Source: Bryum argenteum (lineage: Eukaryota; Streptophyta; Bryopsida; Bryales; Bryaceae). Taken from it: a DNA stretch of 64,000 nt. The notes under the pieces are model-generated. The model made no database searches, was not told where the DNA came from, and was given only the letters and a program-made list of their open reading frames with translations. Each line of letters opens with the position of its first letter. Position 1 is the stretch's first letter. The stretch covers positions 9,693,013-9,757,012 of the forward strand of contig CM073324.1 of assembly GCA_037043015.1 (NCBI GenBank). The letters run 5' to 3'. Below, piece by piece: positions 14,690 to 47,890 of the stretch. Position numbers and translations under genes: made by a program.

Positions 14690-15375
14690 AGCACGTTTAG
14701 ATTTGGTATACAAGAACTAAAATCATAGATATTTCATACATTTTTATGAGTTTTTCCATTTGTATTATGATTTAACACAAATTCCTACTTAACTTGCCAT
14801 GTGACCTAAGTTGAGATTTTAGATGAATTTCAAGAGGGTAGCCTTCGTAATTTAGAATGATTCAAAGAGGTCGGTTCCATAGCTTTTAATTGTTCCACAT
14901 GTTCTTTTTTTCCAAATTTACTCAAAAATTGAGATTTCGGATTCCTTTAAAAAAAAAACCAAAAAATGAAAAATTGCACAAACACATAAAGACACTTCAT
15001 CATCAATAAATTTTTCCCAAACCAAATGAACATGTTTGACACAATGCATGGCAAAGTGCAAAGCTTTGTATTAAAAGTATAGCATAAGGTTGCATCCAAA
15101 ATAGAAAAAAGCTTGGGTTATAGTTCTTATCTACTTTCTTATTAAAAAAATTCTCGAAAAATCCTAAACATCCTCTATATGGCACATTACTTGAATAAAA
15201 TAGTTTATTATATTATTGCAACACATTGAAATAAAAGCATACCAATGAATTGAGATGTTGGACTTCATTTTGACACTTACAAGCAAAACCTCAAAAATGC
15301 GTCTATGTTACAAGCTAGGCTTGTCTATGCTTTTCTTTTAACTAAGAAAGACATGTAAATTTTTAAGACATGCAT

Positions 15376-15660
15376 GTAGATAGATAGAAACTCTGGACCC
15401 CTTAGTAGTACCCCTCTTGAGGGTGGACACTATAACTACGCTAGTTTCTAACCTATTTACCAGTGCCTTGAAGATATTTGACGTAGTATCCCCCCAAAGG
15501 GCTTTGAGGTACCCATACAACAAGGTCCAAGGACCCCCCACAATAGTCGGGTGGACTATAGTGGTGAGCACCATGCCGGCATGGGGAATGGAACCCACAA
15601 CCTCCTCATAGGGGGCGTGGACAGGACATCCCCCAAGCTGGGACCTTACCATGCCTCGAG
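15376..15660 (-). mobile_element. tRNA-headed SINE, copy 1 (internally deleted)
   Basis: Minus-strand copy of the sequence at 53889-54266. Its head holds a B-box-like GGTTGTGGGTTCCATTCC (about 15582-15600) and a weaker A-box-like region near 15630-15646. The body matches the second copy closely (GGGTGGACAC, TACCCATACAACAAGGTCCA). It ends in the same TCTATCTA tail (15378-15388). It lacks roughly 85 bp near the 3' end that the other copy has. Target duplications were not clear here. Confidence 0.68.
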
Positions 15661-16435
15661 CCTTCTTTCCCTACTTTTAAAAAAAAGAGCCTGCGGCCCT
15701 ATTTTATTTTTTTCTGAGTTTATATTTGGAATCAGAGACCCCACATTAGTTCAAGGAGTCTCATTTTTCCAATCAACAACAAAAAAATAGGGGGCTTTTA
15801 CCCCTCACCCTTGCGGGCCCGGACAAGATTCATCCAAGACCCCACGCCTGGTAAGTCCCAGCGTGGGGGATATCCTGCCAAATCGCTCATAGGGGCCATG
15901 AGCGAAGGCATGTACCAAACTACAAGAAGAACTATGATTTCCATTCGCTACTAAATAGCACATCTACTCACGACCTTAATATATTCATAATTGTACTTAT
16001 AATATAACATCAAACTGTCCACCTTTACTTTCAAATAAATGTTTTCACAATCAACAAACCCAAAAAAAAGTAATTAAAGTAATAATAATAATAATTTTTT
16101 TTTTTTTTTAAATCACAAGATCTTACATCAATGTTCATGTTCAATCACAAGATCTTACATCACAAATAGAGGTGTACACCATACATAAACGGGCAATACC
16201 TAAATACAAGAAAAAGACAATGTCAAGCCTAATCTGACAGAATTGTTTAGGACTAATATAAGTAAGGTCCATGTACTATTAATAGGATTGTGAGTAAAGT
16301 CCAAGTACGAATGACAGTATGCTCCTCCAACCCAAAAAGAGTGAAAAGCCTTCTATCACATGAGCGGGATGCGAATCAGAAGCCACAAGTCGGAGGGTCC
16401 CAACATTGAACAGAGTGCTCAACCAGGCTTGGTTT

Positions 16436-16645
16436 TCAGAAATCAGGAAGTGGTGGCAAGTCGAGTATTGGGAAGCCTTGGTTGCTCCTCCTGGGCATAT
16501 CACCCGAAATGCCCGCCTCCACGTCGAACAGTACTGGTCCTGGGAGGGCAAGGGCAGGGGCTACCGCTGCCATGTTGGCCGCAGGGACGAGAGCAGCAGG
16601 AACTGAAACTGGCTGCTGCTGCAGTGGCTGCCCATCGATGTTCAT
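16436..16645 (-). CDS. Small Pro/Ala/Gln-rich protein, family copy A
   Basis: A 69-residue frame from an ATG at 16645. It begins MNIDGQPLQQQPVSVPAAL, continues with an Ala/Val-rich centre, and ends with a well-conserved FDVEAGISGDMPRRSNQGF then PILDLPPLPDF. No signal peptide or membrane segment is evident, and I recognise no family. The support for coding is comparative: the four copies differ by substitutions and by one whole codon (ALPGPV against ALPPV) but never shift this frame. The frame could start 15 codons upstream in this copy (16690), but that extension is not open in copy B. A TATA box about 0.7 kb upstream and an acceptor-like TTGTTGTGGAAG near 16715 suggest a spliced leader. A conserved non-coding transcript remains possible. 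Confidence 0.5.
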   Translation of the reverse strand: MNIDGQPLQQQPVSVPAALVPAANMAAVAPALALPGPVLFDVEAGISGDMPRRSNQGFPILDLPPLPDF

Positions 16646-17367
16646 GGCTGCTTGCTTGGTCTGCTTGCTTGAGCCGTTTGCTACCGTCATTCTCTAGCTC
16701 AGCTTTCCACCTTCCACAACAAAAACAAAACACTTTAACAACATCTCCAGATGAGTCATAAATCGCATGCAAGGGAGGGAGTAAGTAGACTCTAACAACT
16801 CTCAAACTTTGTCGAGATCAAACAAGCGCGTGAAACTCAAATGAGACAATCGCTGTAGAAGTCAATCTCAGCAATCATTCGAATCTAGTATAAAGAGGTA
16901 ATTGTGGAACACGGCATCAAAGATGATATAAGACTATCCTGGTGTCGAATATTCGCGCAGCCACAATCGAATTGAAAAGCTTCAGATAGTACTCAAACAT
17001 TAGGTGTAGCTATACTGTAGCAGTATCAAAGAATGCTCAGAAAACAATCGTATGGAGTTCACTAGACAAGGACACAAGCCAAACGAGCATGACTAACAGA
17101 GGCTCTCATCGATCTCCAATGAAACAAAATAGTGGAGTCCATCCAAGTGGGGGATGGACCCAGCCACCACCATTGCAAGAGCTGTGAAGCCAACTGAAAC
17201 TGAACTGACTGATACCAGTTTCATTGAAATGAAAACCAAAGTAGAATGGAGGGGTAGAGAAGAGACAATCCAAGCGGATGGGGCGAAGTCACACACCAGC
17301 AATTGTGAGTGGCAGACGATAGAAGAGAAATCAGTACCGAGCATGACGTTAAAGGGGTCGTATTCTT

Positions 17368-17375
17368 CTTATATA
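17368..17375 (-). promoter_or_regulatory. Conserved TATA box, copy A
   Basis: On the minus strand, CAGTATATAAGAAGAATACG. The same TATATA(A)AG core with GAATACGACCCC-like sequence downstream occurs at the same place in all four copies. An ATG lies about 25 bp after it (MLGTDFSS), but that frame is broken by small indels in copies C and D, so it is more likely leader sequence. Confidence 0.65.
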
Positions 17376-17400
17376 CTGCTGATTCAATCGGATGAGTGTG

Positions 17401-18228
17401 CAAAAATAAGGTCTGATGCACCTTCCGCGAACACCCCCCCCCCCCAATCATGGTCACAGTTGTTGGTGGAGTTCGGAACGAAAATCAGGCATCTTGCTTA
17501 AAATAACTTGTTAATAAAGCCCAATTCATGTGCACCAGAGTTCAGTCAAATAGCTCCTCCGCCTGCTCTTTTTCCGGGGGCAACATCTCACGGCGCGGGC
17601 CAGTGGGCACGCTTTCAAGTTGCCCGTTACCAAGCGGCTCCCTCCAAACGAGCTCCCGTTCTCATCACATTTTCCCTCTTTGCCGTGAGAAAGAGTCCTC
17701 TCGATAGAGTACTGACAAGGGCCACCATGGCACACGTAGTGGCCGGAAAGACATTAAAATCAGACCCGAGCCCTAATGCTCCGGCACGTGGCAGGGAAAA
17801 TGTGTTTTCTGGGGAGGGTGGCGGGTGACCCACTGGACCCCACTTCTTCGCGGGGCTCCCTCCAAACGCCCATGTCGGGACCCTTTGGCAGGTCCCGATT
17901 GAGAATGCCCTTACTGCGCTTGATTCTCCAGGCAATGGCTCTGTTTTGGAACACATGTATTTTTTCAATCGATAATACATTGATTGGTTAGAGCAAAATA
18001 TACATAAAGAAAAAAGAAAAAAGAAATGTAATCCAGTAAAACTAGAATATACAAAACTTCTACATTCATGTGAATAGTCATTCGTATGCTTGCGAGTTGA
18101 GAAGTATGCTTGAATTGTCATTTGTTATTTAAGGCGGGTAGGTTTGTTTTGTTTTGTTTTGGACATGGCATTATGATCTCGGGCAATGCTCATTGGATCA
18201 AATCGCATTAGCCATGAGGTATCATTGG

Positions 18229-18263
<35 letters not shown>

Positions 18264-23010: not shown

Positions 23011-26000
23011 TTATGAGTTTCTTTTATTGTACCTGAGTCGACCCGGATGTTTGCAGCCCTGGCGATGTCTTGGTGTGTCATTCTCCATTTCGCCATCACT
23101 TTCGATGTCCAGTAACTCATCTTCACTCGCAAATTGCTCGAACTCCTCTGGGTCATCTAAGAAGACAGCCGATGTTTCTTCTTGATCGGAGTAATATTCC
23201 TCTGCAGTCAAAACCGCTTGGACGGTGTTCCTTTCCTCATCATCTTCGTCAACGCCCACTCCCTCGCCATCATCATCATCGCCTTCAACAAGCAAGAACT
23301 CCGATATTCTTGCATCCGGAATAAATAATTAAACCTCCTTCATGCAGGGGACCGGTCCTTGTAAATTGCCTTGAAATGGTAAAGTGTTTATTGTTTCAAC
23401 TTCCGATCTCAGAGTCACAACTCGGCCTTTTGTATACTACCGATTTGATCGCGGTTTCACTTTAATAGCTAACTTCCAACCTTGGTTCATAGGATCATCT
23501 ACGTAAAATAGCTGATTAACGTCCTTCGGGAAAATGAAGGGATCATCTTCAACACCCGATGACCTTAAAAATGCGCCTGCCTTAACGCGGTTGAAACCAC
23601 ATTCATCCTCTAATACAGTGGCATTTGAGCCATGTTGCCTAATGATAGAATCCCAAAATTGGCACCGGAACAAAACAGATTCAAAGCTATCAAAATTCAA
23701 CTTCACAATGGTATCTATGTAGCCATAAAACTCTATTTTTTCCCCTCCAATGTCGTATAGAACCGAAACCCCACTGTCAAAGGTAGTTTTTTTGGTCAAA
23801 TCCCTTGCCATTATGCGATAGTGACTTCCGTACGCCCAACACATACTGTAGAAATGGCCCTTTTCTCCTGGCCCTAGTATAATATCCAAAACCATTTGGG
23901 ACACTGCCTTATTTTTAGATATGTCATCCCGAACTGTACCTTGAACCCAATCCTTGAATGAAGGTTTATGTACCAAGTCCCCACACTCTAAGTCATATCT
24001 CTCCCTCCAAGGTTCTATGCATGGGGCATTAAGTAATAAAAACCTATACGCTTGTTCCCTGAAAATGGGATCCAAAGGTTTAGGAGATGATAACTTGGGC
24101 AGTACTATCCCTTTCGATCGTACATCCTCCTCTGTTGGTTTTTGTAATCGGGTTGCAAACCTATCTAACCTTTGAGTATATTCATTCACATAGAACATTG
24201 ATTCTACGCATATGTACCCTTCGGCGATTGACCCTTCTGGTCGTGCTCGTTGTCTGACGAAGTCTTTTAATACTTTAAGGTAGCGCTCAATGTGATACAT
24301 CCATCTTATAGAAACAGGGCCTGCAAGTTCTACTTCTTCTACTATATGCAAGATATTGTGGACTTGTATGTCAAAAATAGAAATAGGTAAATGTATTTCC
24401 ATTTCACACAATATCTCTGCCGCTTCCTTCTTCATCTTTGGACAATCTGATATCTTAATTTCTTTGGAGCACACCCAACGGAAAAGGGCCGATAAACGGT
24501 ATACAATACTTCGAATACCGGGCGTAAGAGTACCTCTAACGGCAATAGGTAGTAAATCATGAAGCAAATTATGATAATCATGGGTTTTGAAACCTACAAG
24601 CTTGCGATTGTTGAACTTGTGGCGGAAGCTTGATCCATAGCCGAAAGGAGTACGGGTTGATGATATCATGTGGATGATATTATCGTACTCTTGAGCCTTC
24701 CAAATCCAATCAGCTGCCGTATATGTCCACCTTGTTAGGCCCTTCTCATCGACTCCATCTTCTACCGGGTGAAATCGTTGCATTACATTGAATTGTTGTA
24801 AAGACCGGCGTAATGCAAGCGAATCGGACTTCGTCCTTTACAATTCGAGAATGTTTTCAGTGATGAAGCTGAAACGTTCTTCTCCGTGTGCATCACATCT
24901 AGCAAATGAGGGACGAGCAGGTGCTGATAGACAAAAAAAAAAAAAAAAAAAATTAGCACTACATAAAAGTCAATAATTATGGTCTCATGTAGAATGAACA
25001 ATATTTAGGGTCCCCTCCATGACTACGAAAACTTAAGCATAGAGTACCTATAGAATTCCATCAATTTTATGAATCTGAGTCTTATTTCATAAACTACACA
25101 TGCCCTACGTAATTCAACTTGAACATGATGGTACAAAACTAATAATTTATATTGACAACTCAACTGATATACTACTTCGGGTGAAACAATATGATATTGA
25201 GTGTAGTAATGATAAATTATATATATATGACTGTTACATGGAATAGTATAAAAGGCCCTCGATTTTTTTCACACTTTTTAGATAAGTACATAACATATAG
25301 TAAATGTTTAGTTCTTCAATGTAATGACACCATACGTTTCCTGTAAATATTGCATGTAGAATTGATTTTGTTAAGATTGTGGATTCTTTCGGTTAGGTAT
25401 TTCTTCATCTTGTATGCCTATTACTACGATATTAAAAATTTATATCATCACTCATTACTAATTATCTAACTGATTAACTATATAATCAACTTTTAATATT
25501 ACAATTAGTCAAGAAGTTACTGAACTAAAAAGGTTGCATTGTAATATATCGGACATCAAATCGTCCCTTTTTTAGAGATTCCAATGCTCAGTACTACTTC
25601 TATCATTCATTTTGTAGTGACATATTTTCCTCATATTTTCATTTGTACTACTTGGTAATTGGAGGAACTTCCTAGTAGTAATTATAGCATTGCAACTAAG
25701 AGACAAATAGGGAAAAGGTGGAAAAGTTAATGATACTAACCTTGTAGTAAGGAAGACGGAATAAGATCGACTTATCCTTCATGCCAGAGTCTTTGAGGGG
25801 AACTTTATTTCTTTCGACATTCCTCCATTGTTTGAGCCAAAATTTCCCTGTTGTTCTCTCCGGCTTAGGAACCTTATTATATGAAGAACCATCAAATTTG
25901 TGTCGGTTTCTATTTGCCCGGTACTTGTGCTTCATAGGGAGGTATTTCCTATGCCCTATATATACTACCTTTCTCAGGTACGTACAGTATTTTGACTCTA

Positions 26001-28673
26001 TCACATTTGGGCCACAAGGGGGGCAGGCTTTCAATCCTTGAGTCTGTAAAGATGAAAATACTCCATACCCTGGGAAGTCATGCAATGACCATAGCATCAT
26101 TGCGTAAAGTTTGAAATTTTGTTTCGTGTTGGCATCATAAGCGTCAACTCCATCCACCCACAACATCAAAAGATCATCTACCAACGGCTCCATGTATGTG
26201 TTAAAATTTTTAACTTTTCTTTTCCCTGCACAAAGGTCTCATTCAGTTAGTCTTTAATTCCTTACTGAACCGAAGTTTGGTTCTTTGTAATTGTTGGCCC
26301 TTATTATAAGGACCTTTAATCTCTAAACCCTTACTATGTTTTCAAAGCAAATACTGAAGCCACGTTATTGAGGTGTAGTTTAAGCTGTTACACTATCACA
26401 GTACTCACAAGTGATGCACATATAATAGTGAGTAACAGCTATCATGAGGAAAAAAAATAAAGTACCATAATGGAAGCTGGTGGACAATAGTTTAAGGATG
26501 GGAGTAATACCTGGTACGATAGTGGACAATAGAATGTGTCCTTTATGCATTCCTAGCTTAGGGTTCAAATTAAGCAATGTGCATGTAATAGGCCATAGCG
26601 AATTGCTTGTTGAATTCAACCCAGCGGGGTTGATACCGTCCGTACTAATTTGTAACATAACACTTCAGGCATCCTTCATTTTGTCGTACTTATCTTCCAT
26701 TGCCTTCCAAGCAAGAGTATCTGCCGGTATTCGCATTACCTCATCAAAACTTCTATTGTCCCGATGCCATATCATGCGAGGTGACAGACTCGGGCTCCGG
26801 TAATAAGCAAGAAGGCGTGGTATTATAGGGAAATACCACATTTTCTGCACATTAACAGCAATTGTAAATAACTCTCAGGATCACAGTCGAAAATTCAAGT
26901 TGTACTTCAGCATTCTAACAGTATTTTTTTATCAAGAATTGGGGTGTCGTTTAATGAAATAAAAAAATTGTTTCATTATCTGGGATTGAACTGACTGTGT
27001 ACAGTACCAAACGGAAATTCTAACGAACTGCAATATTTTTTTTCCTAGCTTTTTCTTCACATGCTGTACTCATTGTTATTGTACTTCCATATTGCTGATT
27101 TGAGACATGCAATTTATTTTGGGAATTTACTAATAGAAACAAGACTGCATTGTATTTAGGCAATTTACAAATAAAAACAATTTCGAAGAATCCATGAGGC
27201 ATGCTCTTGTACAGATTTGGGTAGGATGTGAATACAAAAACAGTACACCATATCAAATTAACAACCGTTAATGCATGTGAAGTAGCTGATACAGTCGTCA
27301 AGATTTTACACAAGTACGGTGTTATGATCTCAAGAACTTCAGTCACCGCTTAAAATGTATTAGGTGGTGAAAAATTATGTGTATTTAGGCAGTCTTGTAA
27401 TATGGGCTAAATACAAAGTACTAAGAATTGGTAACAGAAATTAAATTAGTTGGAAAATTCAGTATAAAGGTTTTGAGAAACATACCTTACGTGGAACTGT
27501 TTTGCTTTGTGTTGTTTCACTAAACCGAGAAAGATTACATTTGGGGCAAAATTTTCAGTCCTTCTTGATAGGGCCATAGTATAGGGTTAGGTCACAAGGA
27601 CATGCATCATAAACGATATAGTCAAAACCCACATCACTTACTATTTTGCGTGCTTCAGCTCTTGTTGTCGGCATTCTGGAGTTCAGATTCAGGGGGATTA
27701 CTTTCTCTGAAATTGCTCTGAAAATGGCATCCATGGCAACATTTGAGATCTGTTTATCTGCCTGGATGGTTAGGAACAAGAAGATAATCGATAGACGACT
27801 TGATGTTGCACCATCAAAAATCATGGTGGAAGCTTCTTGTTCAAGAACCGAAAGTTTAGCGTCCATGTCTTGTGGAAAATGGTCATTCCTTTGAAGACCA
27901 TGTGCATCGAATTCACGAAGGAGATCCATGTATTCTTTTAATACAAACCTTTCTTCTCGATATATATCATGGTCCTCAAAATTTTCTTCACTTGCTTGCT
28001 CTTCTTGTGTGCCATCGAAACTCTGATCCAAACTGGAAGGGTCCACACTTAACCTTTGAGCCTCATACAATCCCTGCGACAAAATAAAATAAAATTATAA
28101 CATGTTTCATTGGAATTTAAAATTGACAATCAATCCTGAAAAACAATTTACTCTATTTTGAAGTACTTGAGGATTTGAGTACAAAACCATGATTATTTTA
28201 AGTTATTGTCAACCTCAATGAAAAACGAAAAGCACAGCCTACCCCTTCATTACATAATACAATAATTGATCTATTATAATATTTCAATATTATAATATTT
28301 CTATATTATAACTAGAATAATCATAGTATTCACGAAGGGAAGATAAGTGTTCCGAATGAATTACCTGATACTTATCGGACATCTTATAGAGATCAATATG
28401 ATTGTCAACAATAGAGATATATCTCATACTTGGCTTATCCAGTTGTGCACACTTACAACACGGGCAATAGACCTTGAATTCTGGTGTATCGGGAGCATCT
28501 TCCAATGTTGTTTCCTCCCGTCTTCTTTTTTTTCTAGAGTATGTTGTTCTAGGCGGCGAGGATGGAATGTCTTCACTAATTGGGAGTATAGGTGTTGGGG
28601 CGGGAGGAGTGAATTGAGAAACCCCAACAACTTTGTGTCGGCGAGGCATTCTTAAAGTCCTACAATACATCAA
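23011..28673 (-). pseudogene. TNPD-like CACTA transposase, spliced, with two in-frame TGA codons and a frameshift
   Basis: Exons on the minus strand, from matching GT/AG sites: 28673-28367 (Transposase-associated zinc domain, VYCPCCKCAQLDKP), 28073-27486 (NVAMDAIFRAISEKVIPLNL, YDACPCDLTLYY, CPKCNLSRF), 26844-26511 (MWYFPIIPRL, MIWHRDNRS, ISTDGINPAG, the Transposase_21 core), 26225-25741 (MEPLVDDLLMLWVDGVDAYD, VYIGHRKYLPMKH), 24923 to 23437 (LLDVMHTEKNV, then DUF4218 and DUF4216 ending WKLAIKVKP). A probable last exon (23305-23011) adds an acidic Asp/Glu-rich tail. Lesions: TGA at 27555-27557 before KFCPKC, TGA at 26665-26667 between KMKDA and SVMLQ, where relatives have Arg, and a frameshift near 24840 between NCKGR and TKSDSLALRR. 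Domain order and length fit plant TNPD proteins. This copy would not give full-length protein without stop readthrough. Confidence 0.88.
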
Positions 28674-28735
28674 TGATACAAAAGATGATTACCGTTACAC
28701 ATGTTACAATTAACTAGGGAATAATTCAATAAAAA

Positions 28736-30120: not shown

Positions 30121-30435
30121 TAGTCGCAGAGTGCAAGAGGGGACCTATTGGATCTAACTATTGCTGACATGTACTGTACATTGTCCTCTAGTCTTGCATT
30201 CCTCTAGCCGTGATGCTCACGTAGTTTTTCTTTGTTCTTACGCACTCCGGAGTACAGTAACACTCCTTTCCAATGTTTCATTCTCTATTGCTTCTGACTT
30301 TTGTGGGCTAAGTTTTCGCGTACTGTTGATGTATCTCGCATTGTCCAATCTACTGAGCTGTGTTTGTTCTGCTAAATAGTTCCTCAATCTCGTAAACCCC
30401 CTGTTCTATCATTGTGATTTACCATAGTTTTTGCA

Positions 30436-33400
30436 ATGGGAGAGGTAGAAATGGCCGCAAGTGGCGGAGGCAGTGGGGATGCGCCTTCCCGGCAGTGCAA
30501 GAGTGTTTATGATACTGGTGTGAATTGCGAGGGAGATGATACATGTAACCTCAGAGTGAAAGAGGTGGATACCTTGTATAAAAAAACAGATCCGAAGCAA
30601 CCGTATGCCACGAGGAGTTTGAAACCTACACCACCAGCAATGGAAACGGGCACGTCAGGAGGCACTGAAGCACGTGTGGAGTCCAAGAGAGGGAAACGGA
30701 AGAAGATTGGAGGAGGGCAGCAGCAACTGTGGACAAAAAAAATCCTGCGCAAGAATAATGGCGGGTTTGAAGAGCAGGAGACAATATCGATGTACCTGCG
30801 GAGTGCAGATACAGTGATCGATGTATCGATCAAATCTCCCGCGAAGAGGAAGAAGACAAGCCGGCGCCAAGCGAAACTCAGTGGCTCTGCTAACTCGACC
30901 GGACCTTCAATTGGAGGCACCCAGCAATGCACAGGTTCCTCCGAGACTATGCATGAGTTGCAACAATCCGGAGGCTCAAGGAAGAAGACCGATCCTGCGA
31001 TGGTAATTCATGTGCTGGAGGACAACGGGGAAAACTCCGCAAGGACACAGTTGCTGGAAAGCACCGGCAAAAGGTCCGGGACAGAGGTAGCACGCAGGAG
31101 TCTGCAGCAGTACCTGGAAGAGGATAAGCAGCCGGTTCAACATGCGACAATCGCAACTTGTTCAGCATGCGGCCAAGGTATGCGATATCGTTTAATTCCT
31201 AAACCTCGACCTCATTTCATGAATTCTGTACTTAGATTAATACAAAACTTTACTCTTCTCTTATGCAGGGTTCAGCTTTCCAGGTGTACACAATCAGAGC
31301 GCAGAGCACGCGGTCGACCCAAATGCAGACACTAGCAATGGCGGGAGTCGACAATATGGAGAGCACAGAGGAGAGGGACCAGATGGGGATATCACCAACG
31401 CAAGTGTTCTTCAGGGTGCCCCGACCGCTGTAGAGGGCAGAGTGTCCTCTGAAGAACCGTCGTTGAAGCTGTACGCAAGTTCCTCGAACGCTGTGGCGAT
31501 TACCGATGCGATAGTGATTGGCGATGAAGACCCCACCCACCGAGGCGCACAACAGGAAGTGCTTTGCGGCAGGGCAACTACGACTCCTGAAGAAACACTT
31601 CAAATTCCACATGCCGCATCATTGATTTCGAATTTAGAACTGCCTAACCTGGGTACGATGGACGCAGGGGAACCGGGTGGGCTTTCTAAAACTATCGTAG
31701 AAGCAGCGCCGACCTCAGAGGAGATTGAGTTTCCCCATGCAGATGCAGATATGGGAAGCTCTTTGGCAGCGGCTGTTGTAGAGATCGGAAGCCCAATTGA
31801 CGCGCTACATGCAGAGCTCGGGAGGTCGATGGCAGCGCAGCGTGCAGGGATTCAAGGCCAACAACCACCGACTCCTGAACTCATTCGAAGCACTTCGCCA
31901 GCGCGTGATGCAGAGACAGCAAGCCCTATTATGACAGCACCGGTCGCTCTTGGGATTGAATTCCCTCAAACAGATGCAGATAATCGCAGCCCGGAGCCTC
32001 AGACAGAAAGAGGCCATGTCAGCTCACAGTAGCCGATTGCTTGGCCGAGTTCAGAGTGCGATCACGAAGCCCATCTCCCATTCCCCTTTCTCAACAGCAG
32101 GTTACTCCAAGCTCTCGGCCACCACGACAAGGCAAGCCGCGCCGAAAGTCCTCTCCACCATCAATGACATTAGTGCCTGTGGTGTCACCAAGTAAATCCG
32201 CCTCTAAGGCAGCGAAGAGTAAGGAGGAGCCGAAACTTTACCTCGACGCGATCCTCAGCAAGTTAACGCCAACAGAGCAAGCGAGGTACCTCCGAGCGAA
32301 AGCGGAGGTAAGTGAAAACCGCTCATGCTTTCTTTCCTATTTCGACACCAAGTGCATGTAGTCCACATATCTGGTTTTGTAGATTCAGTTCCTCCTGCAG
32401 TAACAGTTGATGTACATGCTTCCGTAGATGCTGGAGGAAAAGTTAGGAGGAACTGGAATGCACGATGGGCTAACTGGCAGTGTCCAAATGGGTGATAAGA
32501 CGTCGATGGAAAAAAACAAGGACAAGATGCCGGATGAGGAAACGAGGCTGGCAAGTCCACAGCTGTCAAAGAAGGAGTTAAGGCGGCAGAAGAGGGCGGC
32601 AGAGAAGCAGGCCGAAATGGAGCGCATTGAGAAGGCAATGCGTGATTTGGCGAAAAAGAAGGCTGCACTTGAGGCTGAAGGTAAGAAGAAAAACAAAGGT
32701 GAAGTGCCCTCACCTCGAGAGAGCAGCAAGGGCCAACCCTCTAAGCGGGCATTGCATACACAGGAGGCACCGAAGGGCCTCAAGGTAAGCCAAAACCCAG
32801 CGGGGAGGATGTACACCAATTCGATAGAATCCTCTCCTATAAGTCTGCCTAGCGAGAGCAACATAATTAGTGATGTGCATTCCATAGGCATGTGGGATAC
32901 TGTTAAGGATGTCCCTCCATGCGAGGTTAATGAGTTGGGCCAGCCCATAGGGACTTTCTGGAAACATATGCAGAGCTACACACATGCCCGAGCTCCCTGG
33001 ATTTTCCCATGGGATAAATCTTGGCCGCATCAAGACAAAGCACTAAAGAGAGCTTTTGCCAGTACAGTCCAGTTTTTGTATCCGGGGAACTATGACATAG
33101 ACTACGTATTAGAAGATGTAGCGACGAATATTAGGCAGAGGAGACAGAGAACTAGGAATCATATGAAGCACCATAACTCAAAGAAGTATACCCCCATCGC
33201 TCATGGTCTTACCGTCAAGGCCTGGAATAATATTTGGGCCTCCATTTCTAACCGATCATACCAGGAAAAATCTAACAAATGCAAAGTAGCCGCGGATGCA
33301 AGGACAGAGCGAATGGGATATACTCACCGACTCGGTTCGCTGGGAGTGGCAGGTTTGATCAAGAAATTTGTAAGTACACAATAACTTTTGCAATTCCAGT

Positions 33401-34060
33401 TACAATTGAGTGAATTCGTAGTTATCTAGATAGAGTGGGAACATTTCTGATGTATGATTTGATGGGACCGTATTAGTACATGACTGTAAGTGTAAGCTTT
33501 CGAAGTTTAGGCTGAACATGTTCTGAATTCAGCGTTGATATGCGATGTAATGACCCCCGGTGTAGGAGGACGAGTTCAAGCGGGTGCCCACGGAGGACGA
33601 GGTGGCAATAGGGAAGCGTGATGGCATTCGGTGCCTCTTCGAAATGACGCACAGGCGGTACAACAGGAAGGCAGGGGAGCCGGACAGAGTTCTCGCGATA
33701 CAGCAAGCAGCAGCTTCGAAATCGGCCGCAAAAAAACGTCAGTCTCTGCCGGCAGCTGACACGGACGAGGAGAGTGCGAGGACCTTATCAGATGATGAAG
33801 AGGATGGTGAGGCCTCTAAGGAGGCGAAGTCGTGCGGATCAGATACATCAAAAGCGAGGAAGAGGGACAGGAGGATGTCCAGGAAGCCGAAGCTAAGTTC
33901 AAGGCCAACACTTCGGAGGAGGACGAAGGAACTCAGAAGGAGGAAGTCGGGTCGTCATCGGAGGATGCTAGTGCAGATGATCGAGACTGACTCGGCATGT
34001 GGTAGACAAATTCTCATTCCTTGTTGCCTCTCACACGTGCTAGGTAAATTATGTACATGA
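30436..34060 (+). CDS. TNPA-like CACTA accessory protein, spliced (frame break near 32030)
   Basis: Exons: 30436-31177 (starts MGEVEMAASGGGSGDAPS; basic KRKKTSRRQAK), 31269-32032, 32041-32307 (RVRSRSPSPIP), 32428-33369 and 33566 to the end. Donors GTATGC, GTAAGTG and GTAAGTA and acceptors TTATGCAG, TTCCGTAG and GGTGTAG keep frame at three of the four joins. Exon 4 has a strong coiled coil (KELRRQKRAAEKQAEMERIE) and then the En/Spm TNPA/Transposase_24-like core: VKAWNNIWASISNRSYQEKS with RTERMGYTHRLGSLGVAGL. Exon 5 continues EDEFKRVPTEDEV and LFEMTHRRYNRKAG. Between exons 2 and 3 the frame changes with no splice site I can see, so either a lesion or a missed intron. The end is also unsure: this frame stops at 34060, but an acidic alternative frame stops at 33990. 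In En/Spm, TNPA binds subterminal repeats. Confidence 0.68.
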
Positions 34061-34879
34061 TGTTTATACAAGAGACACCATACACAGACATGTGTATGTG
34101 TTGTCATGTTATGATATTGGACCCTCGCAGAGCATTCAGTATTATCTGTAGAGTACTGCAGAAGTATGAAGAGCATGAGATATTTATGAACTCCACAGGT
34201 TTTACTTCTTACTACCAAGGTACCGATTTTGGGGATGTGTATTCGGATGCGTATCTTAATTAGCATGTGTATCATTTCTTTAGGATAGAACAGAACTGTG
34301 TATTATCGAATGCAATGTAGAAATGAAGGTGTTATTCACAAAACCTGCGTTCGTTGTAAAAAGAAAAGTCGGAATTTGGGGTCTGTCGATCCTCCAATCG
34401 TGAATGGTTCTGAATTCAGATTTAACAAATCGATCGATGAACCTCTAGTACCCACGTCTCATAATCACAGCCTTTCGTTACTGGAATATATAACGGATAA
34501 TCACATCATCGACTAAACCGGAGTCCAACAAAATGCTTTTATTAGTAAACGTAAATCTAATTCAGGCGATTACTTTCCCGTATACTTTTAACCACTGCAT
34601 TATCACATTTTTCTACACACGAGTAATTACTCAAAGCTCTACAAGTTACCGTAGCGGACAAAAAAATTCACTTCGTGATGAATTTACGAACCGGCTAACT
34701 ATTTTTCTAACGTGTTGAAATATCCAGCATCCCGGGTAGAAGTTAAATATATCGATGATCGATGATGCAGAACTGGACCCCCCCCCCCTGACACGTGCAT
34801 CGTTTGCGGTTGGGAACGCTCTAAGCATGGGAACGAGAAGTACCCAGCAGAGATCTACAGTGTTACGGATGCTACACCC

Positions 34880-36059: not shown

Positions 36060-37348
36060 GATCAATGTAGTTTTTAAATACGTTTGGATTTGGCATTCAA
36101 GAACTGAAATCATAGATATCTCATACAATTTTTTGAGTTTTTCCATTTGTATTATGGATTTAACACAAATTCCTAATTAACTTGCCATGTGACCCAAGTT
36201 GAAATTTTAGATGAATTTCAAGAGGGTAGCCTACTTAATCTAGAATGACTCTAAGAGGTGGGTTCCAAAGCTTTCAACTGTTCCACATGTTCTTTCAAAA
36301 TTTACTCAAAAATTGAGATATCGGAATTCTTCATACAAACAAAGTGAAAAAGTCCACAAACACATAAAGACACCTCATCACCAATCAATTTTCCCCAACC
36401 CAAATTCACATGTTTGACACTATGCATAGCAAAGTGCAAAGCTATCTCTTAAAAGTATAGCATGAGGTTGCATCCAAAATAGTACAAAGCTTGGGTTGTT
36501 GTTCTTATCTACTTCTCTATTGAAAAATTCAGAAAACCCTCAATATCCTATATACAATGTCACAATATAAGCGTAGTAATAGAGTACATCAATTTATTAT
36601 ATCATTGCAACACATTGTAATAAAAGCATATCAATAAATTGAGACGTTTACCTTATTTTGACACTTGAAAGCAAGACCTCAAAAATGTGTCAATATTACA
36701 AGTCATCATCCACATCAACTTCATTCTTTGTTTAAACTTGATGAAAGATCAGAATCTATGTGCAATCCTTAGACAATATTTTACAGTAGCAATTGTACTT
36801 CAACACAATGCAATGGGCCGAGCCTTGTCTTTTAACTAAGTAAGACATGTAAATTTTTTAAGACATACATGTACCAGACTTCAAGAAGACCTATGATTAC
36901 CATTTGCTACTAAATAGCACATCTAATCACGACCTGATATTCATAATTGTACTTATGATATAAAATTGAACTTTCGACCTCCATAAATAAATGATTTCAT
37001 AATAATAATAATAACTAAAAAAAATAAAAAAAATAATTGCACGGAATGAGACATTCGTGAATGTTCATGTACAATCAAGATCTTACACCATACATAGACG
37101 TGCAACACCTAAATACAGAAAAAGACAATGTCAAGCCTAATCTGACAGCAGACTTGTTTAGGATTAATATCAGTAAGGTCCATTAACTATTGGTAGGATT
37201 ATGAGTTAAGTCCAAGTACGAATGAAGGTATACTCCTGCAACCCAAAAAGAGTGAAAAGCCTTCTATCACATGAGCGGGATGCGAATCAGAACCCACAAG
37301 TCGGGAAGTCCCAACTGATTGAACAGAGTGCTCAACCTGGCTTGGTTT

Positions 37349-37555
37349 TTAAAATTCAACAAGTGGTGGCAAGTCCAGTATTGGGAAGCCTTGGTTGCTT
37401 CGCCTGGGCATTTCACCCGAAATGCCCGCCTCCACGTCGAACACTACTGGTGGGAGGGCACAGGCAGGGGCTACCGCTGCCATGTTGGCCGCAGGGACGA
37501 GAGCAGCAGGAAGTGGAACTGGCTGCTGCTGCAGTGGCTGCCCATCGATGTTCAT
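37349..37555 (-). CDS. Small Pro/Ala/Gln-rich protein, family copy B
   Basis: A 68-residue frame starting MNIDGQPLQQQPVPLPAAL and ending FDVEAGISGEMPRRSNQGF then PILDLPPLVEF. Against copy A it lacks one Gly codon (ALPPV) and has conservative changes (GDM to GEM). The frame cannot extend upstream as in copy A because the leader holds a stop after VVEGGRYRRSETD, which supports the internal ATG as the start. A conserved acceptor-like TGTTGTGGAAG precedes it. Function unknown. Confidence 0.5.
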   Translation of the reverse strand: MNIDGQPLQQQPVPLPAALVPAANMAAVAPACALPPVVFDVEAGISGEMPRRSNQGFPILDLPPLVEF

Positions 37556-38296
37556 GGCTGCTTGCTCTGCTTGGCTTGCCTTTGCCGTTTGATACCGTCA
37601 GTCAGTCTCTGAGCGACGGTATCTTCCACCTTCCACAACAAAAGCAGAACACTTTAACATCATCTCCAGATGAGTCGTAAATCGCATGCAAGGGAGGGAG
37701 TAAGTGACTCTAACAACTCTAAAACTTTGTCGAGATGAAACAAGCGCATGAAACTCAAATGAGACAATCGCTGTAGAAGTCGACATATCTCAGCAATCAT
37801 TCGGATCTAGTATAATGAGGTAATTGTGGAACACGGCATCAAAGATGATATAAGACTATCCTGGTGTCGAATACTCGCGCAGCCACAATCGAATTGAAAA
37901 GCTTCTGATAGTACTAAAACATATAAGGTGTAGCTAGACTGTAGCAGTATCATAGAGTGCTCAGAAAACAATCGTGTCGAGTTCACTAGACAAGGACACA
38001 ACCAAACGAGCATGACTAAAAGACTGATCAAGGCTGTCATCTCCAATGAAACAGAACATGAGGAGTCCATCCAAGTGTGGGATGAACCCAGCCAGCACCA
38101 TTGCAAGAGCTGTGAAGCCAACTGAAACTGAACTGACTGATACCAGTTTGACTGAAATGAAACCAAAGTACAATGGAGGGGTAGAGAAGAGATAATCCAA
38201 GCGGATGGGGCGAAGTCACACACCAGCAATTGTGAGTGGCAGACGACAGAAGAGAAATCAGTAACGAGCATGACCTTCAAAGGCGTCGTATGCTTC

Positions 38297-38304
38297 TTTA
38301 TATA
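38297..38304 (-). promoter_or_regulatory. Conserved TATA box, copy B
   Basis: On the minus strand, CAGCAGTATATAAAGAAGC, matching the position in copies A, C and D relative to the leader and small ORF. Confidence 0.65.
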
Positions 38305-38320
38305 CTGCTGGTAGTGTGGC

Positions 38321-41394: not shown

Positions 41395-42048
41395 TATCAG
41401 AATCTTTGTACAATCCTTAGACAAGCTTTTATGGAAGCGATTGTACTTTAACACAATGCAAAGAGCTGAGCCTTGTCTATGCTCTTCTTTTAACTAAAAA
41501 AGACATGTATAATTTCTAAGACATGCATGTACCAAACTACAAGAAGAACTACAATTACCATATGCTTTTAAATAGCACATCTAATCACGACATGATATTC
41601 ATAAACTTTCTACTTATAAAATATCCACCATGAACCGTAATGATTTCACAATCAACAAAAAAACGAAATGCACGGAATCAGAAACATATATGAATGTTCG
41701 TGTTCAATCACAAGATCTTACAACAGACATAAGGTGCACACAATACATAAACGTGCATTACCTGGAAGAACAAAAAAATAAAAAATAAATAAAAATAATA
41801 ATTTAAAAAATTTAAAAAAAAAATAAAAAAAAATGTCAAACCTAATCTGACAGACTTGTTAAGGACTAATATAAGTAAGGTCCATATACTATTAATAGGA
41901 TTGTGAGTAAAGTCCAAGACAGCACGACTGAAAGTATACTCCTGCAACCCAAAAAGGGTGAAAAGCCTTCTCTGATATGAGCGGGATGCGAATCAAAAGC
42001 CACAAGTCGGAAAGTCCCAACATTGAACAGAGCAACCTGGCTTGGTTT

Positions 42049-42255
42049 TCAAACTTCAACAAGTGGTGGCAAGTCCAGTATTGGGAAGCCTTGGTTGCTC
42101 CTCCTAGGCATTTCACCCGAAATGCCCGCCTCCACGTCGAACAGTACTGGAGGGAGGGCACGGGCAGGGGCTACCACTGCCATGTTGGCCGCAGGGACGA
42201 GAGCAGCAGGAACTGGAACTGGCTGCTGCTGCAGTGGCTGCCCATCGATGTTCAT
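42049..42255 (-). CDS. Small Pro/Ala/Gln-rich protein, family copy C
   Basis: A 68-residue frame, MNIDGQPLQQQPVPVPAAL to FDVEAGISGEMPRRSNQGF then PILDLPPLVEV. Closest to copy B (same missing Gly codon, same GEM and LVE changes), so B and C share a more recent ancestor than either does with A or D. Frame and C-terminal block are intact although the leader has several indels. Function unknown. Confidence 0.5.
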   Translation of the reverse strand: MNIDGQPLQQQPVPVPAALVPAANMAVVAPARALPPVLFDVEAGISGEMPRRSNQGFPILDLPPLVEV

Positions 42256-43053
42256 GGCTGCTGGCTTTGCTTGAATTGCTTGCGCCGTTTGCTATCGTCA
42301 GTCTGTCTCTCCGCTCTCCACCTTCCACAACAAATCAAAACACTTTAACATCATCCCCAGATGAGTCGTAAATCGCATGCAAGGGGCCAAGGCAGGGAGT
42401 AAGTAGACACTAACAACTCTTAGACTAAGTTTGATTCAGATATAGAAACTTTGTCGAGATCAAACAAGCGCGTGAAACTCAAAATAATGAGCCGAGACAA
42501 TCGCTGTAGAAGTCGACATATCTCAGCAATCATTCGGATCTGGTATAATGAGGAAATTGTGGAACACGGCATCGAAGATGATATAAGACTATCCTGGTGT
42601 CGAGTATTCGCACAGCCACAATCAATGAAGGGGCATTGACATCACTAGTCTCAAGAGCTTCAGATAGTATTGAAGCATTATGTATAGACTGTAGCATTAT
42701 AGAGCACACAACAATCGTATCGAGTACACTAGACAAGGACACAACCAAACGAGCATGACTGACAGAGGCTCTCATCTCCAAACAATCAGAATATGAGGAG
42801 TCCACCCAAGTGTGGGATGGACCCAACCACCACCATTGCAATTCGCAAGAGCTGTGAAGCCAACTGAAACTGAAATGACTGATACCAGTTTGACTGAAAT
42901 GAGAAGTAAAGTACAACGTCGGAGGGGTAGAGAAGAGACAATCCAAGCGGATGGGGCGAAGTCACACACCAGTCAGTAATGGTGAGTAGCAGACGATAGA
43001 AGAGAAATCAGTACCCGAGCATGACGTTGAAAGGCGTCGTATTCTTCAATCGT

Positions 43054-43061
43054 CTTATATA
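43054..43061 (-). promoter_or_regulatory. Conserved TATA box, copy C
   Basis: On the minus strand, CAGCAGTATATAAGACG. A C-rich minisatellite begins 18 bp upstream of it. Confidence 0.65.
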
Positions 43062-43078
43062 CTGCTGGACTGGACGGC

Positions 43079-43166
43079 TGGACCGCCACCCTTCCCCTCC
43101 CCCCCTGCATGGACCGCCACCCTCCCCCTCCCCCCGTGCATGGACCGCCACCCTCCCCCCCCCTGG
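43079..43166. repeat. Three tandem copies of a ~31-bp C-rich unit upstream of the copy C TATA box
   Basis: TGGACCGCCACCCT followed by a CCCCTCCCCCC run and TGCA repeats near 43079, 43110 and 43141. The other three copies lack this array. Confidence 0.8.
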
Positions 43167-43361: not shown

Positions 43362-45012
43362 CAGTACCCGGCAAGTCTCATTCGTCAACCCCTGCTGCAG
43401 CTGAAATTCAGCAGTGAACCTGTAACTTGGAAATGACACCAAAGGCTCAAAAATGTATGGAATTGCAAACCGTAAATTGAGTTTGGAAGATAATGAAGTC
43501 TAGTTTCATGACATGCACTTTTATTACATTGAAATAGTCAAAGCATACAACAATAGAGCATTTTGTGGCACACTATCTACCATCTAGTACTACCGCCCCC
43601 CACATTAATTTCAGCCTTCATCCGGTGAGGCATGCTAGCAAGGAGAATTTCAAGAGTCTCCATGGATATAGCTTCCCATGCCCGCTCAATACTTTTGATC
43701 AATTCATCTTTGTTGTTTGGCCTAGTCTCCTTTTGTACAACGTCTCTTAGAATCATCCACACATTCTCTATGGGATTCAAGTCCAGTGAGTTTGCAGGCC
43801 ATGTAATCTTCTTGATCATACTACGATGCACCGGGGCACCATCTTCCATAAGGAATAGACTTTGAGGATCATCATGCATATAAAAAAAGCCACTCAATTG
43901 ACCCTCGTATACAACGTCAACAAAATCAGCACTTGTCCGTCTATCGGATTGCATAATGACAATGGGGCACTTTTCATAACTTGTAAAAGCACCCCAAATC
44001 ATGACGGATGTGCGGCCAGATTTGAAAGTGGGTGCTAAGCAATCCCATGAATAACGTTCATAAGATCGTCGCCAAACCTTCACTTGCCGGGAATTTTTGC
44101 CTATCTCAAATGAAGCCTCATCTGTCCATATCACATGCATCCAATCCAATGTGTTCCAAGATTGATGTTTCTTGGCAAATGCCAATCTATCAGCCTTGTG
44201 CTTGTGACTAAGAAATGGCTTCTTTGCTGCAACACAGCTACGAAATCCAATACGTTTAATCTCCTTCCTTGGTGTACGTACACAAACTTTCTCAGTCATC
44301 TTTTCTATGATAGAGACAAGTGGAATGCGTCTATTCTGTATAAGAATGCGTACCAATTCCTTTCTACCTCGATCAGTTAGTTTGCAACGACATACGACTT
44401 TACGAGTGACCACTGTTCCGTAATCATTGAATTTCTTCAAAACATATTCAATGGTGGAACATGGCATGCCTAACTCTATTGCAATGCTACGTTGTGACAT
44501 TCCTGAACGACTCATCCCAACTATGACACCCTTTTCCTCTGTGCTTAAACGACAACCTCCCATTTTTGCAAAATCTTAAACACAAGAAAATGCACCTAAA
44601 GGTTAAATCTGCCTTGAGAGAGAAACAAGAGCTATAAAACTACGCATACAACATTTCCTGAAACAAAATTTGTGTTGATTGTGTGTAGACTGAAGCTTCA
44701 TTTGTACAAAGTTTCAGCTGAAAATGAGCAAATGCATGGCTTCCATGTGCATCGATATTTCTAAAAGCTGTGTATACAAGTTGCCACCACACTGACACTG
44801 TTTGTTAATTTTTAATTTTTATCAAGATCTTTCTAATATCTCATTAATTGCTAAATGACACATGTTGTAAGACTACTCATCCTACCCAATGTTACTAATT
44901 AAAGCTCATGAGTTGGAGAGGTGAAGAATAGGGAGCATTTTGAAGTAGCATGAGTGCCACTTCAGAGAAGCTGGTTTCAGTGTGGTGGACGGTTGAGACT
45001 TGCCGGGTACTG
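43362..45012 (-). mobile_element. Tc1/mariner element, 1,651 bp, TA target
   Basis: Left end CAGTACCCGGCAAGTCTCA follows TA (43360-43361); right end TGAGACTTGCCGGGTACTG (44994-45012) precedes TA (45013-45014). The 19-bp inverted repeat is perfect and weaker pairing continues inwards. It carries one transposase ORF on the minus strand. TA insertion and short TIRs are established for Tc1/mariner elements. It lies between unit copies C and D. Confidence 0.92.
43577..44563 (-). CDS. Tc1-like transposase with shortened catalytic linker (DD24E)
   Basis: A 328-residue uninterrupted frame. The N-terminus holds a paired-like HTH (MGGCRLSTEEKGVIVGMSRS, then GMSQRSIAIELGMPCSTIEY). The catalytic domain shows Asp148 in HVIWTDEASFEIG, Asp241 in SLFLMEDGAPVHRS and Glu266 in SLDLNPIENVW. 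Tc1 transposases normally have 34 residues between the second Asp and the Glu. Here there are 24, because about ten residues are missing between HRSMIKK and ITWPANS, without loss of frame. Length (usual about 340) and the rest of the fold are otherwise normal. The gap lies near the active site, so the enzyme is probably inactive, but the open frame means the event may be recent. Start chosen at the ATG before GGCRLSTEE, 450 bp from the right TIR. Confidence 0.92.
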   Translation of the reverse strand: MGGCRLSTEEKGVIVGMSRSGMSQRSIAIELGMPCSTIEYVLKKFNDYGTVVTRKVVCRCKLTDRGRKELVRILIQNRRIPLVSIIEKMTEKVCVRTPRKEIKRIGFRSCVAAKKPFLSHKHKADRLAFAKKHQSWNTLDWMHVIWTDEASFEIGKNSRQVKVWRRSYERYSWDCLAPTFKSGRTSVMIWGAFTSYEKCPIVIMQSDRRTSADFVDVVYEGQLSGFFYMHDDPQSLFLMEDGAPVHRSMIKKITWPANSLDLNPIENVWMILRDVVQKETRPNNKDELIKSIERAWEAISMETLEILLASMPHRMKAEINVGGGSTRW

Positions 45013-45014
45013 TA

Positions 45015-45274: not shown

Positions 45275-46320
45275 TACGGAGGTTACTACACTCGAATCTT
45301 TAGGCAGTGGTTTTGCTATGGAACACATGTACTTTTTCACTTGATAATACGTTGATTGATTGGTGCAAAAGTTTGTGCAAAAGTTTCTAAGGGCATTGCT
45401 TGGGATAGACTGTCTCCATGGTGCAAAGGGGGATTTGAAGATTACTAACCCCTAGAATCCTAGATATCCTTAAAACTCTAAATGGGTTTCTGGAATTTCA
45501 TTTCAAACATAAGTCTCTTGTATCATATTGGACACGGTGATTCGAGTCAACATTTAAGGACCCAATTCCTATTAGTGAAAGTCAAGTACGCTCATGCAAA
45601 AATTTAGAGACTCATTCTACATAAGGATTATGGAAATGGTCAAAGAGAGAAAGCAGAAGAACTTGTTGGAAGATCAAATGGAGTAAGGTAATTTCTGCTC
45701 AAGATTCACGAAAGTTTGATATGGCAACAATTAACTAATTAAGGTAATGGCTCAAATTTCAACATCGCAAATTTGTAGTGACATTAGGTGTGTGGGCAAT
45801 TTGTGTTCACGGGCAAAATATTTAAAAGATTGGACACATTCAAATCGTGATTTTATGAATCCTTCGAGAATTTGCTATCAAAAGTTGATGTTGGATTTTC
45901 AACCAAGAGCCTCAAGATTTCTCTTTTATATCTTGACGGCTGGACTTCTCCACCGTAGTGTAAACATGCCTTAATTAAAATGAATCCACTCTATTATGAA
46001 ATATCCATCTTTATTAAAGGTTCATTTCGAGTGACGATTGAAAAGCTAGAAATAATGCGGAGTGGAGAAAAAGGTAAAAGATGGGGAGGAGAAAGTAAAA
46101 GAAAGTCGTATACGAGAAAAGAGAAAGATGGAGAGGGGAAAGAAGAAAACGATGGGAGATAAAGGAAAAAGGCAGGCAGGTTCCTGCCTGCCCTGTCCGT
46201 GCCGCCGGAGGGGGGTGTCCGTGCCGTCAGAAGTGTGTCCCGGGGGAACCGGTCCGCATCGTAACTGAACCCTGTCAACCGCCTTGGTGGCTGAATCTAC
46301 CATTCGGGGATCTATGATGT
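45275..46320. other. Intergenic DNA, no gene seen
   Basis: 45320-45370 repeats sequence found near 17925-17990, and 45490-45620 repeats sequence near 18720-18900. 46040-46170 is purine-rich (GGAGAAA-type) and gives spurious frames on both strands. 46180-46260 is GC-rich. Confidence 0.45.
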
Positions 46321-46391
46321 TCCTAGATCCAGTGCTGCCGCCCCGTTGGGGTGGCCCCTAGATCCAGTGCTGCCGCCCCGTTGGGGAGGCC
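46321..46391. repeat. Two tandem copies of a ~35-bp unit upstream of the copy D TATA box
   Basis: CCTAGATCCAGTGCTGCCGC followed by CCCGTTGGGG occurs at about 46323 and 46358. The array ends 31 bp before the TATA box of copy D. Confidence 0.8.
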
Positions 46392-46421
46392 CATACTCAC
46401 CGCGCGTGGACGCTAGAACTG

Positions 46422-46428
46422 TATAAAG
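46422..46428 (+). promoter_or_regulatory. Conserved TATA box, copy D
   Basis: AACTGTATAAAGACGAGG, followed by GAATATGACCCCTTTGAAC, matching the minus-strand promoters of copies A-C. The ATG 26 bp later opens a frame that a 2-base deletion ends after 17 codons. Confidence 0.65.
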
Positions 46429-47147
46429 ACGAGGAATATGACCCCTTTGAACTTCATGCTCGGTACTGATTTCTCTTATCGTCTGCCACTCACAATTGCT
46501 GGTGTGTGACTTCGCCCCATCCGCGCGCTTGGATTGTCTCTTCTCTACCCCTCCAACATTCTACTTTGGTTTTCATTTCAGTCCAACTGGTAGCAGTTTC
46601 AGTTGGCTTCACAGCTCTTGCAATGGTGGTGGCTGAGTCCATCCCCCACTTGGATGGACTCCTCATGTTCTGTTTCATTGGAGATGAGAGCCTCTGTTAG
46701 TCATGCTCGTTTGGTTGTGTCCTTGTCTAGTGAACTCGACACGATTGTTTTCTGCTCTTTAATGCTACAGTCTAGCAAGACACAATTGTTTGAGTACCAA
46801 TTGAAGCTTTTCAACTCGATTGTGGCTGCGCGAATACTCGACACCAGGATAGTCTTATATCATCTTTGATGCCGTATTCCACAATTACCGCATTATACTA
46901 GATCCGAATTGAATGATTGCTGAGATATGTCGACTTCTGTAGCGATTGTCTCATTTGAGTTTCACGCGCTTGTTTCATCTCGACAAAGTTTGAGATTCGT
47001 TAGAGTCACTTACTTTCTCCCTTGCATGCGATTTACGACTCATCTGGAGATGATGTTAAAGTGTTTTTTTTTGTTGTGGAAGGTGGAAAGCTCAGAAGCC
47101 GACTGACGGTAGGAAACGGCGCAAGCAAGCAAAGTAAGCCAGCAGCC

Positions 47148-47357
47148 ATGAACTTCGATGGGCAGCCACTGCAGCAGCAGGCAGTTCCAGTTCCTGCTGC
47201 TCTCGTCCCTGCGGCCAACATGGCAGTGGTAGCCCCTGCCCGTGCCCTCCCAGGACCAGTACTATTCGACGTGGAGGCGGGCATTTCGGGTGATATGCCC
47301 AGGCGAAGCAACCAAGGCTTCCCAATACTCGACTTGCCACCACTTCCTGCTTTCTGA
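47148..47357 (+). CDS. Small Pro/Ala/Gln-rich protein, family copy D
   Basis: A 69-residue frame, MNFDGQPLQQQAVPVPAAL to FDVEAGISGDMPRRSNQGF then PILDLPPLPAF. It shares ALPGPV and GDM with copy A. In this copy the frame is also open upstream to 47022 (FFVVEGGKLRSRLTVGNGAS), but that part contains the acceptor-like TTGTTGTGGAAG and is not conserved as protein in copies B and C. The C-terminal 30 residues are the most constant part of all four copies. Function unknown. Confidence 0.5.
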   Translation: MNFDGQPLQQQAVPVPAALVPAANMAVVAPARALPGPVLFDVEAGISGDMPRRSNQGFPILDLPPLPAF

Positions 47358-47890
47358 AAACCAAGCCAGGTTGAGCACTCTGTTCAATGTTGGGACTTCC
47401 CGACTTGTGGCTTCTGATCCGCATCCCGCTCAAGAAGGCTTTTCACTCTTTTTGGGTTGCAGGAGTATACTTTCAGTCGTACTTGGACTTTACGCACAAT
47501 AGGACTATTAATAGTGTATGGACCTTACTTGTATTAATCCTAAACAAGTCTGTCAGATTAGACTTGATGTCTATTGTCTATTTTTTTTGTGAGCATTTAG
47601 GTATTGCACGTTTATGTATGCTACCACTACATGTGATGTAAGATCTTGTGATTGAACTGAATGTTTCTGATTCCGTGCACTCGTTCGTTGGTTGTGAAAA
47701 CATTACGGTTGAAGGTGGAAAGTTTTATGTCATATTATATATTCATACATTTTCATGCAAAATGTCACATATGTTAATTTGGTTTGGGAACAGATTGATT
47801 GGTGATGAGGTGCCTTTACGTGTTTGTAGTTTTCCAAAAAAAAATAAAAATTGATAATTCTAAAATCTCAAACTTTGAACAAATGTCGAA

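Follow-up and report, generated by a model that had tools for sequence, protein, structure and literature searches.

A clustered family of predicted small proteins with a conserved C-terminal motif in the moss Bryum argenteum

A stretch of 64,000 nucleotides from the 258.8-Mb genome of Bryum argenteum (C4:9693013-9757012; referred to as the window) carries four related units, each with one short open reading frame (ORF). With a probability of roughly 0.6 we regard these units as recently duplicated members of a protein-coding family, which would produce a small disordered protein with a C-terminal motif from an mRNA with a long leader, and which would evolve by birth and death. That they belong to a clustered protein-coding gene family is in itself highly probable. 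The evidence comes mainly from the relatives of the four copies elsewhere in the genome: in the predicted frame, a C-terminal motif of 27 codons shows the substitution pattern of purifying selection. The genome also contains a LEAFY gene, as would be expected for a moss: one of its exons matches PDB 4bhk, the LEAFY protein of Physcomitrella, with 102 of 106 aligned residues identical (243 bits, compared to 172 bits for the next relative in the PDB).

Members of the Family Are Clustered on Three Chromosomes

The genome was searched by tblastn with copy B, and three further searches followed. The search with copy B yielded 33 matches (E ≤ 10), with E values of 3.5e-34 to 2.2e-29 for copies A, C and D and 4.2e-13 for the best match outside the window. 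To enter the tally, a place had to reach E < 0.003 in one or more of the searches, and all counts are lower bounds. The family comprises at least 38 places on three chromosomes (C4, C7 and C10), arranged as six clusters and one single copy, and 34 of these places lie outside the window:

C4: the four window copies; a single copy at 12.34 Mb
C7: 6 copies at 5.85-5.96 Mb; 10 at 13.15-13.29 Mb; 6 at 13.71-13.77 Mb
C10: 6 copies at 10.94-11.02 Mb; 5 at 9.29-9.55 Mb

C7:5853284 (E 0.19), C4:24112652 (E 0.07), C5:5089826 (E 9.5) and C10:9287822, which is a second piece beside 9287661, were left out of the tally.

Translations were inspected for 36 of the 38 places, and 24 of those 36 were taken into the protein alignment. 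Of the 32 inspected copies outside the window, all but L018, L022 and L034 (29 copies) have a MAQAN-like start that is in frame with the motif. The family proteins contain an Ala/Pro-rich spacer of very variable length, and repeats such as NVAAGA or VPVPVA are present in many of them. In two C7 copies (L017 and L026) the spacer repeats, of about 10 and about 6 residues, stay in frame, as if a minisatellite had grown inside the coding sequence. Close to the C-terminus, the C4 and C7 copies typically read FD(V/I)(E/Q)AG-x-SG-x-MP-(R/K)(R/K)-S-x-x-GF-x-LLDLPPL, and C10 copies have different tails (TKSNEGCYIHATIT; TKSNVGCEIRAKLIDETD). We considered and rejected the view that the tail GCYIHATIT of the C10 copies at 11 Mb is a frameshift product, since the C10 copies at 9.3 Mb (...TKSNVGCEIRAKLIDETD) suggest a genuine variant tail. 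Matches of a DNA pattern for FDVEAG on C1 and C6 (L001, L006 and L007) were also dropped; they read ...FDVEAGM(V/M)TWLFFWNS and stand in another protein context. Some members of the family are broken: L031 has a frameshift in the motif, a TAG interrupts the copy at C10:9287661, and L018, L022 and L034 have no usual in-frame start.

Codon statistics were calculated for 27 motif codons in 23 of 30 copies, omitting L016 (indel), L031 (frameshift), and L033 and L035-L038 (other tail). In the proposed frame the ratio of nonsynonymous to synonymous differences per site (pN/pS) was 0.32 and no stop was present in any of the 23 copies; in the remaining five frames, stops occurred in 4 to 22 of the 23. 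Parsimony assigned 32, 29 and 68 changes to the first, second and third codon position, respectively, so that 68 of 129 changes fall on the third position (P = 4.5e-6). When the window copies were removed (19 copies), the numbers were 28, 26 and 59 (P = 2.7e-5).

Four Homologous Units in the Window

A comparison of the window with itself revealed four homologous units of about 1.2 kb, with pairwise pieces that share 82-91% identity. Three of the units are on the minus strand and the fourth is on the plus strand. A preliminary description of this DNA had listed four copies (three on the same strand, one inverted) with one short ORF each, and the self-comparison bears this out. The span that it gave to the family, 14690-47890, includes the four units, but also takes in patchy homology of the 3′ flank (14687-15314 with 36074-36702). 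The features of the units are as follows:

16134-17381 (−), unit A
16134-16435 (−), 3′ region of copy A, presumed 3′ untranslated region (UTR), mostly common to all four copies
16436-16645 (−), small ORF of copy A, 69 aa, MNIDGQPLQQQ...FDVEAGISGDMPRRSNQGFPILDLPPLPDF, stop at the low end
16646-17375 (−), leader of copy A, about 730 nt, with the TATA-like box TATATAAG at 17368-17375
37084-38310 (−), unit B
37349-37555 (−), small ORF of copy B, 68 aa
37556-38304 (−), leader of copy B with the TATA-like box TATATAAA at about 38297-38304
41816-43062 (−), unit C
42049-42255 (−), small ORF of copy C, 68 aa
42256-43061 (−), leader of copy C with the TATA-like box TATATAAG at 43054-43061
43079-43163 (no strand), GC-rich tandem repeat, 31 bp x 2.8, close upstream of the TATA-like box of copy C
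46322-46392 (no strand), GC-rich tandem repeat, 35 bp x 2, close upstream of the TATA-like box of copy D
46421-47661 (+), unit D
46420-47147 (+), leader of copy D with the TATA-like box TGTATAAA from about 46420
47148-47357 (+), small ORF of copy D, 69 aa, MNFDGQPLQQQ...

The distribution of insertions and deletions among the four copies sets the ORF apart. Over 724 leader columns we counted 31 distinct indels, of which 25 have a length not divisible by three; over 213 columns of the 3′ region the count is 6, and 3 of these likewise have such a length. The 207 columns of the ORF contain a single indel, of a whole codon, versus 8.9 expected at the rate of the leader (Poisson P for ≤1 event = 0.0014) and 5.8 at the rate of the 3′ region (P for ≤1 = 0.02). 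The single-codon length change that had been noticed earlier thus holds. Shifts within the leader had been ascribed to copies C and D; they are not confined to these, as A and B differ by 12 indels. The ORF has 22 variable columns out of 207, the leader 117 out of 699 and the 3′ region 29 out of 203, and within the C-terminal motif the changes among the window copies are 2, 0 and 5 by codon position.

The Start Codon Is Shifted in the Window Copies

We aligned the start regions of the four window copies and six copies from C7 and C10. The ATG of the ATGGCGCAAGC-like starts is ACG in all four window copies, and the ATG that opens the window frame (MN(I/F)DG) corresponds to GTG (VNAHG) in the four C7 relatives of this alignment. 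The window frame opens about 11 codons downstream of the former start position. The interval between the old and the new start is out of frame in A and D (offset 2) and in frame in B and C (offset 0). Because the usual ATG is replaced by ACG and the frame opens later, the window copies would make a shortened protein. This shift fits the contrast between leader and ORF, yet it also fits a window subfamily under relaxed constraint, and the copies may still function, with a shorter N-terminus, or may be heading to decay. The cluster records a traceable event, in which the usual start was lost, a downstream codon took over, and the frame between the two was broken in two of the four copies.

The Upstream Edge and the Leader

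The TATA box reported as conserved is exact (TATATAAG) in copies A and C, but reads TATATAAA in B and TGTATAAA in D. By number alone the element is ordinary, with 2 exact occurrences of TATATAAG in the window versus 2.47 expected by chance. Its position, as judged from the alignments, looks non-random: the likeness of the copies starts about there and is lost upstream, where all six pairs have mismatch fractions of 0.49-0.68 over 87 columns, compared to 0.071-0.115 in the leader. A short stretch (TTCGCGGAAGGTGC) about 35 nt further upstream of the box is common to A and B. In a group of six C7 copies homology fades near the TATA-like position as well. Considering that the box lies at the edge of homology, but is lacking in two of these six C7 copies, and that some C7 pairs stay alike further upstream, it is likely, although not proven, that the box is a promoter sequence.

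The preliminary description suggested splicing between the leader and TGTTGTGGAAG. In support of this, in 22 of 33 copies the acceptor-like TGTGGAAG precedes the start by no more than 110 nt, and in three of the four C10 copies at 9.3 Mb shown, the sequence TTTTGCAG/AGGAAGG resembles a 3′ splice site. On the other hand, the acceptor-like element occurs at two distances, mostly about 32 nt for the copies on C7 and C10 and 73-82 nt for those on C4, and six C7 copies have the exact TGTGGAAG at another place, 69-80 nt from the start. A search of the leaders for a conserved 5′ splice site yielded no convincing candidate; with a donor scoring table, the best mean scores in the five groups were 2.7, 1.6, 1.9, 1.6 and 1.7 bits. 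An intron in the 5′ UTR is possible, and would leave the protein unchanged.

No Known Relatives Were Detected

The 24 members matched no Pfam family at E ≤ 0.1, and Rfam gave no match at the gathering threshold over the window and none at E ≤ 1 over 16000-17500. A profile search of the PDB yielded no significant match, none being below E 0.4; the weak match at this value, to chloroplast SRP54, was taken as chance. Viral and prokaryotic contigs contained no relative in single-protein searches, by which only close relatives are detectable. With NCBIfam, four families matched weakly among the 24 members, the best being a model of LpxD acyltransferase (E 0.01, in 2 of 24), and we discounted these matches, which we ascribe to the Ala/Asn/Val repeats. 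Three strings of the family motif had no match in the literature searched. All this agrees with the preliminary description, whose author knew of no family with this sequence. Although new with respect to the libraries searched, the family is of a well-known type, namely a lineage-specific, expanding family of small proteins. To the eye, the N-termini (MAQAN..., MNIDGQ...) appear unlike the signal peptides of secreted small peptide precursors of the CLE or RALF type, and an unseen upstream exon could alter them.

Weighing the Interpretations

Several observations weigh against the view that the window copies are active members of the family and against the protein that we propose. Over the whole ORF, the four window copies have a pooled pN/pS of 0.68, and the variable columns show no excess at the third codon position (9, 5 and 8 at positions 1, 2 and 3), so that the window subfamily may be relaxed or decaying. 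Selection on the protein, as claimed in the preliminary description, is well visible across the family, in the low pN/pS and the third-position excess, but makes a weak showing in the four copies alone; for these the proposed calculation of dN/dS, here done as pooled pN/pS, is not decisive, while the indel contrast of the ORF speaks in its favor. Frameshifted copies elsewhere together with a ratio near 1 had been named as signs of an unselected frame. Frameshifted or stopped copies do occur (L031, C10:9287661). In the family statistics one antisense frame also has a low pN/pS (0.35, with stops in 4 of 23 copies), which is due to its sharing the third position with the proposed frame, and the set of 23 copies was chosen after the frameshifted L031 had been dropped. 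The window leaders contain 13-14 upstream ATGs each, compared to 11-12 expected, and translation would be hindered unless the leader is spliced out. AlphaFold, with 24 sequences as input, predicted no secondary structure (mean pLDDT 60.5, pTM 0.14), which is in keeping with disorder but is weak evidence. As for the biochemical role, a disordered, non-secreted precursor or linear-motif protein is our best guess from the layout, and a tentative one.

If the window copies were decaying pseudogenes of a real family, the start would have been lost and the replacement frame would be open only because the copies are young. The ACG in all four copies, the broken frame between the two starts in two of them, the substitution pattern of the ORF and the existence of broken relatives are all in line with such decay. 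It is nevertheless somewhat unlikely, as the ORF has collected a single in-frame indel where 5.8-8.9 would be expected, is less variable than both the leader and the 3′ region, and retains changes predominantly at third positions within the C-terminal motif. The ORF could also represent the final exon, or an inner portion, of a gene for a larger spliced protein, with an intron in the leader and TGTGGAAG/G as its acceptor. We consider this rather improbable. It would account for the acceptor-like sequences in 22 of 33 copies and in the C10 copies at 9.3 Mb, and an unspliced leader is awkward with so many upstream ATGs; however, the exact TGTGGAAG is absent from 11 of the 33 copies and displaced in six C7 copies, the leaders lack a good conserved 5′ splice site, and, given 25 leader indels whose lengths are not divisible by three, the window copies are unlikely to have a conserved coding exon there.

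Two further explanations were rejected as highly improbable. A non-coding RNA gene, for a microRNA or another structured RNA, with an incidental ORF would be compatible with the TATA-like box, the similar leaders, and the stable folding of 150-nt leader windows in A (z −2.33) and D (z −2.61). The corresponding windows of B (z −0.60) and C (z −0.56) are ordinary, however, and the folds differ; compared to shuffled sequences, copy A folds no better at the ORF end (z −0.19) and worse at the leader end (z 2.87). Rfam gave no match over the window or copy A, and a protein motif is kept across subfamilies with changes at third positions. Similarly, the sharp start of homology near the TATA-like box and the presence of several transposon frames in the window could point to a transposable element, or to a fragment that such an element carries, but the copies, as far as the lower-bound counts go, are clustered on three chromosomes and not dispersed, no Pfam domain, and so no transposition domain, was detected at E ≤ 0.1 in 24 members, and the patchy homology of the 3′ flank fits segmental duplication.

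In the protein-coding interpretation that we prefer, transcription would start just past the TATA-like box, which sits on the boundary of the duplicated unit, and would give an mRNA composed of a long leader, spliced or not, and one small ORF. The protein would be disordered and have no evident signal peptide. Its Ala/Pro-rich spacer, free to vary in length, might carry the conserved C-terminal linear motif as the working part, and this motif could serve in docking or be released as a peptide from a precursor in the cytosol. Birth-and-death evolution, as in defence or conflict genes, is suggested by the clustering, the presence of broken copies, the varying spacers and the upstream sequences that differ from copy to copy. 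A more far-reaching idea, which we put forward with considerable doubt, is a clustered system of the moss lineage with about 40 genes for small cytosolic signalling or defence proteins, which would share one C-terminal linear motif behind varying Ala/Pro spacers; the window copies would then have private upstream sequence, as the TATA-like box would mark the beginning of the duplicated unit.

Other Features of the Window

Several transposon-related frames lie in the window. A long open frame at 8717-10180 (+) has a DDE_Tnp_1_7 domain (E 8.8e-60) and is presumably a piggyBac-like transposase. DUF4218/DUF4216 and Transposase_21 were found at 23437-24783 and 25696-26193 (−), which we take to be pieces of a CACTA-type transposon. 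Between copies C and D, a Tc1-like transposase frame of 328 aa is located at 43577-44563 (−), with HTH_Tnp_Tc3_2 at E 3.8e-14 and DDE_3 just under the cut-off. The GC-rich region 30400-34100 (+) contains long frames of 299, 196, 318 and 158 aa with no Pfam match, and is possibly an element or an unannotated gene. A short telomere-like repeat (GGTTTAG x 6.4) at 54830-54873 is chromosome-internal.

Comparison with Known Systems

Small-protein families that have neither signal peptides nor known domains are easily missed by annotation. The peptide biology of bryophytes is thin, and about 40 clustered genes with one conserved motif offer a clear handle for tests. The precursors of phytocytokines of the PROPEP/systemin type resemble the moss proteins by description: they are short, lack an evident signal peptide, and combine a weakly conserved N-terminal portion with a short conserved stretch at the C-terminus. 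By description, too, the family differs from them in its motif, its Ala/Pro spacer and its copy number. Measured as a cytosolic phytocytokine precursor, it agrees only in the C-terminal placing of the conserved motif. The translated small ORFs of plant long non-coding RNAs likewise lie behind a long leader, whereas the moss ORF has many family members, across which purifying selection leaves a measurable signature. With the lineage-specific, tandemly expanded orphan families of plants, the family has in common its clusters, broken copies, variable spacer length and the fact that no known homologue was found; it differs in that its orphan status holds for the libraries searched here.

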